DNA from: an uncultured Gammaproteobacteria bacterium
GTDB lineage: Bacteria > Pseudomonadota > Gammaproteobacteria > GCA-002705445 > GCA-002716945
Direction: 5' to 3'
Assembly (NCBI GenBank): GCA_913048065.1
Contig: CAJWVG010000005.1
Coordinates: forward strand, 1-46,732
Length of the DNA stretch: 46,732 bases
Part shown: in pieces, positions 25,971 to 46,664 of the stretch
Layout: each line of letters starts with the position of its first letter
Numbering within the stretch: the stretch's first letter is position 1
Position numbers and translations under genes: made by a program
The notes under the pieces: generated by a model
Databases searched by the model: none
Seen by the model: the letters and a program-made list of their open reading frames with translations, nothing else
What the model was told of the DNA's origin: nothing

Positions 25971-26409
25971 AGTAAAGGTTAGGATAAATGATAAAAATTT
26001 AAGAGATATCCCATCTTTCTCAACGCCTGGGTCAGCTGGTTTAGATCTACGAGCATCATTAGAATCACCACTAGAGCTAAAACCAGGTAAAACAGAACTT
26101 ATTCCAACAGGAATATCCATATATATAGAAAATAAAACTCATGCAGCTCTTATATTGCCTAGGTCAGGTTTAGGTCACAAAAATGGCATAGTGTTAGGTA
26201 ACTTGGTGGGATTAATAGATTCTGATTATCAAGGACAGTTGTTTGTATCATGCTGGAATCGGGGTGGCACCGAATACACTATCGAACCATATGATAGAAT
26301 TGCTCAATTAATATTTATAACGATAGAGCAACCAAAGTTCACTATTGTTGATGATTTTAAAGAAACTATAAGAGGGGAAAGTGGTTTTGGCTCTTCAGGG
26401 AAAAAGTAG
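25960..26409 (+). CDS. dut: dUTP diphosphatase
   Basis: '[13 protein letters not shown]', '[29 protein letters not shown]', '[12 protein letters not shown]'; ATG at 25960 preferred to TTG at 25948. Confidence 0.96.
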
Positions 26410-27790
26410 GTTAGATATAGTTAAGGATGCATTTCGCGCATATGACATAAGAGGTACATACCCAGAACAAATAGATGAGGATTTGTTTTATCAAATTGGA
26501 AAATCAATAGCTACAAAGATTCAAAAGGAATCAAACGAAAAGAAAATTATTATATGCATGGATGGAAGATTAACTGGTCCATTACTCAAAAAAAGTCTGA
26601 TAGCAGGGTTGATTGATACAGGAATAGATATTATAGACATAGGTATTTTGCCAACACCATTATTATATTTCTCATTATATCACCTAAAGATAGACAATGG
26701 ATTAATGATAACAGGGAGTCATAATCCTAAAAATTATAATGGCATTAAAATTGTCATAAATAAAAAAACACTATTTAATGAACATATAATGAGATTGTTT
26801 GAAACCATTAAAAATTCTGATTATGTCAATAGCAGAGAAAAAGGAGTTAAAGAATTTAATAATGAGATAGTTGACGAATATATAAATGAGATAAGAACGA
26901 CTATAACAATTAAAAATCCATTCAAAGTAGTTATTGATTGTGGAAATGGTGTAACTGGTGCAATTACAGAAAGAATTTTTAATGCTTTTAATGTTGATCA
27001 TGAAATAATTCATGAAAACGTCGATGGCAATTTTCCAAATCATCCACCAGATCCATCGAATGAAAATAATTTACTTGATATCAAAAAAGCAGTTGTGAAA
27101 ACTCAATCAGAATTAGGAATTGCATATGATGGTGATGGTGACCGTATCATTGCAATAAATGCAGATGGTGAAGTAATTTGGCCAGATGAATTAATGATAA
27201 TTTTCAGTAGAGATATATTAAAAAGAAATAAAAATGCCAAGATAGTTTATGATGTTAAATGTACAGCTAATTTAGAAAAAGAAATCAAAAAAAATGGTGG
27301 TATACCAATATTATCCAGAACCGGTCATTCATTTATTAAAAAAGCGATTACTGAGGAAAAAGCTAAGCTTGGTGGAGAAATGAGCGGACATATATTTTTT
27401 GCTGATAAATGGTATGGCTTCGATGATGGAATTTACACATCGCTTCGCTTGCTAGAAATCTTAACAAATAATAAGACGTCAAATATTCTAACTAATCTTC
27501 CTAAATCTATTTCTACGCCGGAGATAAACATACCCTTTGATGAAAACAATCATATTATATTCATGAAATCATTTGTCGAACAGTCAAAATTTGAAGGGGC
27601 AAAAATAGTTGATATTGATGGGTTAAAAATAATATATGATGATAGTTGGGGTTTGATAAGATGTTCCAATACAACATCTAGTATAGTTCTAAGATTCGAA
27701 GCTGATACAGACATAGCGATGAAAAATATAAAAAGTATGTTTAAGAAAATTATGCTAAGAATAGATAACGCCCTTATTATCCCCTTTTAA
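26381..27790 (+). CDS. algC: Phosphomannomutase/phosphoglucomutase (AlgC-like)
   Basis: '[13 protein letters not shown]', '[16 protein letters not shown]', '[14 protein letters not shown]', '[22 protein letters not shown]'; start uncertain (GTG overlapping dut). Confidence 0.92.
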
Positions 27791-27829
27791 AAAAATCATA
27801 AAATAAATCTTGATTTTTGATACATTATG

Positions 27830-27835
27830 TATAAT
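27830..27835 (+). promoter_or_regulatory. Candidate -10 element TATAAT upstream of argB (no good -35 at optimal spacing)
   Basis: Exact TATAAT in the algC-argB gap. Confidence 0.4.
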
Positions 27836-27858
27836 ATTCTCTATGCATGTATACGTTT

Positions 27859-27876
27859 TAAGTGAATATTCACTTA
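27859..27876. promoter_or_regulatory. Perfect 18-bp palindrome TAAGTGAATATTCACTTA, candidate operator (or RNA hairpin) before HTH-argB
   Basis: Identical to its reverse complement; ends 22 nt before the ATG at 27899. Confidence 0.7.
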
Positions 27877-27898
27877 TATATACTTTATGGAGGGTAAA

Positions 27899-28996
27899 AT
27901 GGATTTAAAACAATATCTTGAAAAACAAGGCCTCAGTATTAGCAAGTTTGCTAAGATGTGTGATTTACCTGAGATTACTGTTACAAAATATAAGTATGGG
28001 GATAGAATTCCTAATAAGCTTAATATGAAAAAAATCTATGCGGTTACAGATAAAGAGGTAACACCTAATGATTTTTATAAGATAAAAAAAAATACTAAGA
28101 AAGATAATTCGGTAGTTTATAGAAAAAAAAGTAGCATAACGCCAAATACAGCAAATATTCTTACAGAAGCTCTACCGTATATTCAACAACTCTCCAATAA
28201 AGTCATTGTAATTAAATTTGGTGGGAATGCTATGATCGATGGTTCATTAAAAAATAATTTTGCAAGAGACATAGTTCTTTTAAAACAGGTTGGTTTACAC
28301 CCTGTAATTGTTCATGGTGGTGGACCTCAAATTACTACTCATCTAGAAAAACTAGGTATTAAATCTAAATTTGCCAATGGAATGAGAATAACTGACCCTG
28401 AATCAATTCATATAATAGAAATGGTATTAGGGGGCTTGGTTAACAAAGATATCGTTAATTCTATTACTTCACATGGCGGTAAAGCGGTTGGTTTATCTGG
28501 TAAAGATGGCGGTTTAATAAGAGCGAAAAAAATTATTGGTGAAGGCGAGTTTAAGAATATCGATTTTAAAAATACTGGTACAGTACAAAGCATAGATCCA
28601 GAAGTAGTGAGTCTTTTAGATGGCTCACCATTTATACCAGTTATTGCGCCTATAGGCATTGGTGATGATGGAACTACTTATAATATTAATGCAGATTTAG
28701 TTGCAGGTAAAATCGCACATATTTTACAAGCTAATAAATATTTAATTCTAACTAATACTACTGGTATTTTAGATGGTGATAAACATTTAATAAAATCAAT
28801 AAATGCAGGTAAAGTTAAAAAATTAATAAATCAAGGTGTTATATCTAAAGGTATGCTACCTAAAGTAGAGTCCGCTCTTGAAGCTGTCTCGTATGGTGTT
28901 GAACATGTACAAATAATAGATGGTACTGTTGACCATGCTGTGCTACTTGAATTATTTACAGATGAAGGTATTGGCACAATGATACGAAGGTTATAA
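27899..28996 (+). CDS. argB: Acetylglutamate kinase with N-terminal Cro/CI-type HTH domain
   Basis: Residues 1-60 'MDLKQYLEKQGLSISKFAKMCDLPEITVTKYKYGDRIPNKLNMKKIYAVTDKEVTPNDFY' look like a phage-type HTH; residues ~82-365 are a full ArgB ('ALPYIQQLSNKVIVIKFGGNAM', 'VIVHGGGPQIT', 'GLSGKDGGLI'); SD 'ggaggg' before ATG 27899. Confidence 0.93.
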   Translation: MDLKQYLEKQGLSISKFAKMCDLPEITVTKYKYGDRIPNKLNMKKIYAVTDKEVTPNDFYKIKKNTKKDNSVVYRKKSSITPNTANILTEALPYIQQLSNKVIVIKFGGNAMIDGSLKNNFARDIVLLKQVGLHPVIVHGGGPQITTHLEKLGIKSKFANGMRITDPESIHIIEMVLGGLVNKDIVNSITSHGGKAVGLSGKDGGLIRAKKIIGEGEFKNIDFKNTGTVQSIDPEVVSLLDGSPFIPVIAPIGIGDDGTTYNINADLVAGKIAHILQANKYLILTNTTGILDGDKHLIKSINAGKVKKLINQGVISKGMLPKVESALEAVSYGVEHVQIIDGTVDHAVLLELFTDEGIGTMIRRL

Positions 28997-45273: not shown

Positions 45274-46664
45274 TTTTTGAAACCATATTTTTTCAAGTTA
45301 TCAAGTATCATATCTGCCTGCTTAATCACAGAAGCCGGGGATGTTTGACCCAAGCCCCTCCTTGCCTTAACAGAAGCCTCTGGACCAAGAACATTAAATA
45401 TGTCCTTACCTATAAGGGGAGAAAACTTTTGTAACTGTTTGAGAGAAAGGTCTATTAATTCAAGAGATTCCTTTTCGCAAAATTTGACTATCTTCCCTAC
45501 CACATGATGTGATGTTCTAAAGGGCATTCCTTGTTTAGATAAATATTCAGCTAAATCAGTGGCCGTTGAAAAAGAGCTTCCTGCCATTTTCTCGGCTTTT
45601 TTCTTGTTCAATTTTAAAGTAGCAATGAGCCTTGGCAATAAACTTAAACAAGCCATAGTTGTGTCAATAGATTCAAGTATAAGAGATTTATCTTCTTGCA
45701 TATCTCTGTTGTAAGTTAGAGGCAGTCCTTTTAATAACGTTAAAATAGCCATCAATGACCCATAAACTGAACCCGTTTTTCCTCTTATAAGTTCAGCGAC
45801 ATCGGGATTTTTCTTTTGTGGCATAATGGAAGAACCAGTACAAAAGCCTTCATCCATATCAACTAATCCAAATTGAGGATTCATCCAAAGTACAAGCTCC
45901 TCACTTATTCTTGAAAGGTGCATCATAATCATCGCGTTATTATGGGCAAAATCACAAACATAATCCCTGTCACTGACTGCATCCATGGAATTTTTTGAGA
46001 CATTGTCAAAACCTAGTTTCTTTGCAATCATTTTTCTATCTATTTTTAAAGATGTGCCGGACAGAGCCGCTGAACCTAGTGGCAAAATATTTATAATTTT
46101 ACGTGTATTCTCAAGTCTCTGCTCATCTCTTGATAGCATCTCGTTCCAAGCTAATAAATGATGCCCAAAAGTTACGGGTTGTGCAATTTGCAAGTGAGTA
46201 AAACCAGGGAAAAGGGAATCCGAAAATTCTATTGCCATCGTAGCAAGCACATACTTAGTTTCCCTAATTTTATAAAGATAAATATCAATAAAGTCTCTTA
46301 AATATAAACGTAGATCCGTTGTAACTAAGTCATTTCTGGATCTTCCAAGATGTATTTTTTTTCCTAGATCACCAATATTTTTAACTAGTGCATTTTCGAT
46401 GTTCATATGAACATCCTCGTAATCAACAGACCACGGTAATTTGCCACTATCAGCAAGTTTTTTGACTTTTCTTAGTCCTGCCAAGATTTTTTTACACTCT
46501 GAAAGATTGATATGCCCACACTTATTTAACATTTCGACATGAGCAATAGTGACTCTAATGTCTACATCATAAAGGACAATATCGATGCTTAAGCTTTGGC
46601 TGAACTCAAGAACCTCTGCATCAATCTGTTTTGTGAACCTACTGGACCAAGTAACATTTTTCAT
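45270..46664 (-). CDS. argH: Argininosuccinate lyase
   Basis: 'VDYEDVHMNIENALV', 'HLGRSRNDLVTTDLRL', 'GFTHLQIAQPVTFGHHLLAW', 'GSSIMPQKKNPDVAELIRGK'. Confidence 0.97.
   Translation of the reverse strand: MKNVTWSSRFTKQIDAEVLEFSQSLSIDIVLYDVDIRVTIAHVEMLNKCGHINLSECKKILAGLRKVKKLADSGKLPWSVDYEDVHMNIENALVKNIGDLGKKIHLGRSRNDLVTTDLRLYLRDFIDIYLYKIRETKYVLATMAIEFSDSLFPGFTHLQIAQPVTFGHHLLAWNEMLSRDEQRLENTRKIINILPLGSAALSGTSLKIDRKMIAKKLGFDNVSKNSMDAVSDRDYVCDFAHNNAMIMMHLSRISEELVLWMNPQFGLVDMDEGFCTGSSIMPQKKNPDVAELIRGKTGSVYGSLMAILTLLKGLPLTYNRDMQEDKSLILESIDTTMACLSLLPRLIATLKLNKKKAEKMAGSSFSTATDLAEYLSKQGMPFRTSHHVVGKIVKFCEKESLELIDLSLKQLQKFSPLIGKDIFNVLGPEASVKARRGLGQTSPASVIKQADMILDNLKKYGFKK

Follow-up and report, generated by a model that had tools for sequence, protein, structure and literature searches.

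A lineage-specific promoter-like segment carrying a perfect palindrome and an HTH domain fused to ArgB in an uncultured gammaproteobacterium

Introduction

The acetylglutamate kinase (ArgB) of an uncultured gammaproteobacterium (contig CAJWVG010000005.1) carries an HTH domain at its N terminus, and a palindrome lies immediately upstream of the gene that encodes this fusion. The arrangement raises the question of whether the palindrome might be an operator for the adjoining HTH, so that the enzyme could regulate its own synthesis, as a preliminary description of the locus had suggested. Metabolic enzymes joined to DNA-binding domains are well known, BirA combining an HTH with a biotin ligase and PutA an RHH domain with proline catabolism. 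Arginine genes, on the other hand, are associated with the ARG box, the consensus of which is an 18-bp imperfect palindrome with TGAAT/ATTCA half-sites about 4 bp apart. The locus is analyzed here within the window, that is, the whole available stretch of 46,732 nucleotides, and by comparison with the family to which the genome belongs, represented by 25 genomes (this one and 24 others) and the sole family of its order among those examined.

Results

Direct reading of TAAGTGAATATTCACTTA confirms that it equals its own reverse complement and is thus a perfect 18-bp palindrome, as first reported, and the coordinates bear out its described placement between a TATAAT hexamer and the SD/ATG of HTH-argB (Table 1). 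It begins 23 bp downstream of the TATAAT, here taken as a candidate promoter on the strength of a sequence match, and ends 12 bp before the candidate ribosome-binding site. No good -35 element was found at 16-18 bp from this hexamer, the -35 being weak, and a scan for consensus promoters did not select it. As for an XRE/Cro-type operator, a dyad-symmetric site is found at the candidate promoter of the gene, and the XRE HTH gene lies directly downstream of it. An intrinsic terminator or attenuator was also considered and rejected, the G+C-rich stem and T run of such elements not being present (0 sites in 27600-28100). Since none of these terminator-like sites separates algC from argB, read-through from upstream could bypass or limit any repression exerted at the palindrome.

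Table 1. Features of the algC/HTH-argB region (window coordinates)
Feature	Position	Strand	Remarks
algC-like gene upstream of argB	26381..27790	+	3' end intact
Intergenic region algC/HTH-argB	27791..27898	+	108 bp, 21% G+C, absent in relatives
TATAAT, candidate -10 hexamer	27830..27835	+	sequence match
Perfect 18-bp palindrome TAAGTGAATATTCACTTA, candidate operator	27859..27876	.	sequence and shuffle statistics
GGAGGG, candidate ribosome-binding site	27889..27894	+	4 nt before the HTH-argB ATG (27899)
HTH domain, residues 1-62	27899..28084	+	Pfam HTH_3
Basic linker, residues 63-82	28085..28144	+	aligned with the native ArgB start around residues 66-69, where the ATG is gone
Kinase part (acetylglutamate kinase, ArgB), including the N-helix of arginine-sensitive hexameric NAGKs	28145..28996	+	TIGR00761, 1.1e-71

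Phylogenetic footprinting across the family reveals that the TATAAT, the palindrome and the HTH co-occur in one genome and are jointly absent elsewhere. Of the 24 other genomes, 23 yielded argB, always as a plain kinase, and none yielded the HTH of HTH-argB, so that the fusion is carried by a single genome of the 25. In 21 of the 23 relatives (all those measured) the argB ATG lies 1-6 bp past the algC stop codon, which leaves no room for the palindrome; hence, palindrome and HTH are absent together. The script did not locate the algC stop in the remaining two (L021 and L027), the upstream sequence of which likewise lacks the HTH. The simplest history for the promoter-like TATAAT, the palindrome and the HTH would be a single insertion of about 310 bp, two separate events being also possible, and the stretch that holds them was probably acquired from elsewhere. 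This lineage-specific promoter and HTH segment, with the palindrome inside it, is the firmest new finding of the analysis. It could in principle be due to faulty assembly or binning, with no HTH segment at this place in the organism, given that all of it comes from one draft genome (62 contigs, 82.6% complete) and that the junction appears in no second genome. However, the flanking genes (algC, argB, a membrane protein gene and pyrE) keep the order seen in relatives, and the join is in frame and has lost the native start codon, which would be unlikely for a misjoin. We thus consider an artefact very improbable.

The HTH_3 match covers residues 3-46 of the fusion and exceeds the Pfam cut-off. 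It is the only such match above the cut-off in the 25 family genomes; therefore, the HTH probably came from outside rather than from a copy of a resident gene, and it stands as the sole XRE candidate for binding the palindrome. With the native start lost, the next in-frame methionine falls inside the kinase domain, from which it follows that the enzyme would be made only as an HTH fusion, barring the use of a non-standard start codon. The closest solved relative of the kinase part is the P. aeruginosa NAGK (2BUF, E 1.3e-85), with the N-terminal segment of which NTANILTEALPYIQQ aligns. This N-helix has been found in all arginine-inhibitable NAGKs and, in those that are hexameric, interlaces the dimers (PMC3329491). 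By inference, the kinase part would be of the arginine-sensitive hexameric type. It resembles the P. aeruginosa (2BUF) and T. maritima (2BTY) enzymes of this type in the N-helix motif and in a full-length kinase match, and it differs from them in the 62-residue HTH and the linker that stand ahead of the N-helix. An AlphaFold model of the fusion (pLDDT 34) was too poor for use, and a search of the open-access literature returned no HTH-ArgB fusion.

The main rival to an operator is that the palindrome arose by chance in very A+T-rich intergenic DNA and has no function, the HTH binding elsewhere or being tolerated as an N-terminal extension. The whole window contains two perfect 18-bp palindromes against a mean of about 0.6 in dinucleotide shuffles, the second being found inside argH, and the local shuffle P rises to 0.03 once gaps and one mismatch are permitted. 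Against this, when the 108-bp intergenic region was shuffled 20,000 times, a perfect 18-bp palindrome appeared in only 82 cases (0.41%), and the site falls between the promoter-like TATAAT and the ribosome-binding site. It is, furthermore, the longest palindrome among the 14 intergenic stretches of at least 30 bp in the window (2.0 kb in total), where the next-longest ones span 14 bp and are pure A/T, unlike TAAGTGAATATTCACTTA, and it adjoins a DNA-binding domain absent from the rest of the family. The palindrome is, therefore, unusual for its location but, taken by itself, not beyond what chance could give, a statistical case that is suggestive rather than overwhelming, and we regard a chance origin as unlikely, although it retains a substantial minority share of the probability. 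The second palindrome (GATGTTCATATGAACATC, 46398-46415) lies within the argH coding sequence and is probably a chance occurrence.

The palindrome may also act as RNA, forming a leader hairpin that protects the mRNA or tunes the translation of HTH-argB. The hairpin originally proposed, with a 7-bp stem and a 4-nt loop, is reproduced by folding, and its stem forms locally, some 12 nt ahead of the ribosome-binding site, within a 51-nt fold of -8.1 kcal/mol. Nonetheless, the leader does not fold clearly better than its shuffles (z of 0.26 for 109 nt and of -1.4 for 51 nt), no Rfam family matched it, and an RNA function does not require the symmetry to extend perfectly through the loop. A role of this kind seems decidedly improbable.

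Regarding the origin of the HTH, matches were obtained in only four other genomes out of the 369 of the class and 399 of the phylum that were searched. The best ones (39-41% identical) are 160-residue proteins that combine an HTH with a phage tail lysozyme-like region in another group with 1.1-Mb genomes. No close donor emerged from the viral scan, and matches elsewhere reach only about 28-41%. The weaker matches in phages and plasmids correspond to small XRE genes beside divergent genes (L086, L087, L090 and L092), the divergent neighbor coding for a LexA-type repressor in L090 and for an HTH protein in L092, as in cI/cro switches. A Cro-type ancestry of the HTH fits these arrangements, by position rather than by proof. 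The likeness to the Cro/C1 (XRE) autoregulators of temperate phages and prophages lies in the HTH_3 domain, in the Cro-like position of its relatives and in an operator-sized palindrome near its own promoter, whereas the HTH of this locus is joined to a biosynthetic enzyme, stands without a divergent repressor partner, and its binding is putative only. Upstream of the distant HTH relatives there is no consistent palindrome and nothing resembling TAAGTGAATATTCACTTA, and the HTH-lysozyme genes, which are the closest relatives, share no common upstream palindrome. A viral source for the palindrome was likewise rejected: the 18-mer is absent from IMG/VR, and none of the 19 viral contigs that contain the 16-mer core has such an HTH adjacent to it. 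Separately, the 160-residue Cro-type HTH/tail-lysozyme-like protein (L043:1501-1980, L044:1501-1980) occurs in 5 of 11 examined genomes of one gammaproteobacterial genus with genomes of about 1 Mb, and the ATG of its genes is preceded, at a distance of a few bases, by a TATAAT-like sequence.

Discussion

We see an even chance that the palindrome is the operator of a captured HTH and now serves autoregulation through putative binding of the fusion protein. In this scenario, the junction of algC and argB would have received about 310 bp of DNA that held the palindrome, a promoter and a small HTH reading frame of the Cro type, which would have joined argB in frame at the expense of the native start. 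Transcription would start about 7 bp after the TATAAT, so that the palindrome would span approximately +17 to +34, and pairs of HTH heads borne by the kinase oligomer would bind it and limit argB transcription. Arginine might alter the geometry of these heads and thereby make repression arginine-dependent, a possibility that arises because the kinase appears to be of the arginine-sensitive hexameric type. The single-step capture, the binding, the repression and the arginine response are all steps that we infer. As to the autoregulation postulated in the preliminary description, the co-presence of palindrome and HTH, their joint absence in relatives and the standing of the HTH as the sole XRE-type match above the cut-off speak in its favor, while its extension to a wider arg regulon is not supported.

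A more ambitious reading would make HTH-ArgB a one-protein arginine switch, in which an arginine-sensing hexameric kinase, equipped with HTH heads and an operator taken jointly from a phage Cro-type gene, represses its own transcription and stands in for the ArgR that this streamlined marine bacterium lacks; we consider this quite unlikely. ArgR (PF02863) was found in none of the 25 family genomes and in 8 of 14 controls. An ARG box was rejected as an identity for the site: the half-sites abut directly, GTGAATATTCAC, without the separation of about 4 bp, and the ArgR repressor gene was not detected in the genome. The initial assertion that this is not a standard ArgR box is thus upheld by the missing spacer and by the lack of ArgR in the 25 genomes. 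The two systems have in common the TGAAT/ATTCA half-sites, the arginine pathway and, by inference, a hexameric arginine-binding protein, and they differ in the spacer, in the absence of an ArgR gene from the family and in the presence here of a single site instead of tandem boxes. It may be observed, too, that with ArgB bearing the only HTH_3 above the cut-off and with no ArgR in the whole family, transcription control in the order seems very reduced.

BirA and PutA provide the closest analogy, insofar as a metabolic enzyme bears a DNA-binding domain at its N terminus and has a candidate operator beside the gene that encodes it, but here the enzyme is acetylglutamate kinase, the arrangement is confined to one genome, and the regulatory role is putative. 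If the operator reading is correct, a metabolic enzyme would have become the repressor of its own transcription, maybe in a single step that delivered promoter, operator and DNA-binding head together, and would have done so in a lineage without detectable ArgR or any other clear XRE regulator. The case would then be a recent illustration of the way in which BirA-type enzyme-repressors can arise.

The distribution of similar sites bears on the extent of any such regulation. No other site within three mismatches exists in the window and hence none upstream of argH, in agreement with the copy previously reported as absent there. In the genome, the 18-mer at up to three mismatches has two other sites, both coding. 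The 16-bp core at the same threshold has 19, the palindrome itself included, against 14 for a reversed control, a comparison that counts in favor of a chance palindrome. Fourteen of the 18 other core sites were examined, four being left out, and all of them lie within reading frames or overlap their starts, a coding location that is as expected for a single-target site; no other intergenic copy appeared among the sites examined. The palindrome might instead be the operator of another regulator governing the new argB promoter, such as a TetR-type repressor, for which abutting inverted half-sites are common. A second good site, often expected near the own gene of a separate regulator, is however missing from the genome, and the palindrome adjoins the only HTH_3 gene, making this alternative improbable. 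The suggested scan for palindrome-like sites near arg genes likewise gave no support for a wider arg regulon, given the counts above and an unconvincing match at argD. This partial match (L062) overlaps the argD start codon and was rejected as evidence of an operator; in congeners the site reads, for example, TTATGAAGAATTACTT, with six mismatches, part of the difference corresponding to the second codon. These data favor a single-site autoregulatory role for the palindrome, or none, and lend no support to an arginine regulon. Apart from this, many genomes of the family (L063-L085) share a promoter-like element similar to TATTAGAATAC, located some 30 bp ahead of argD.
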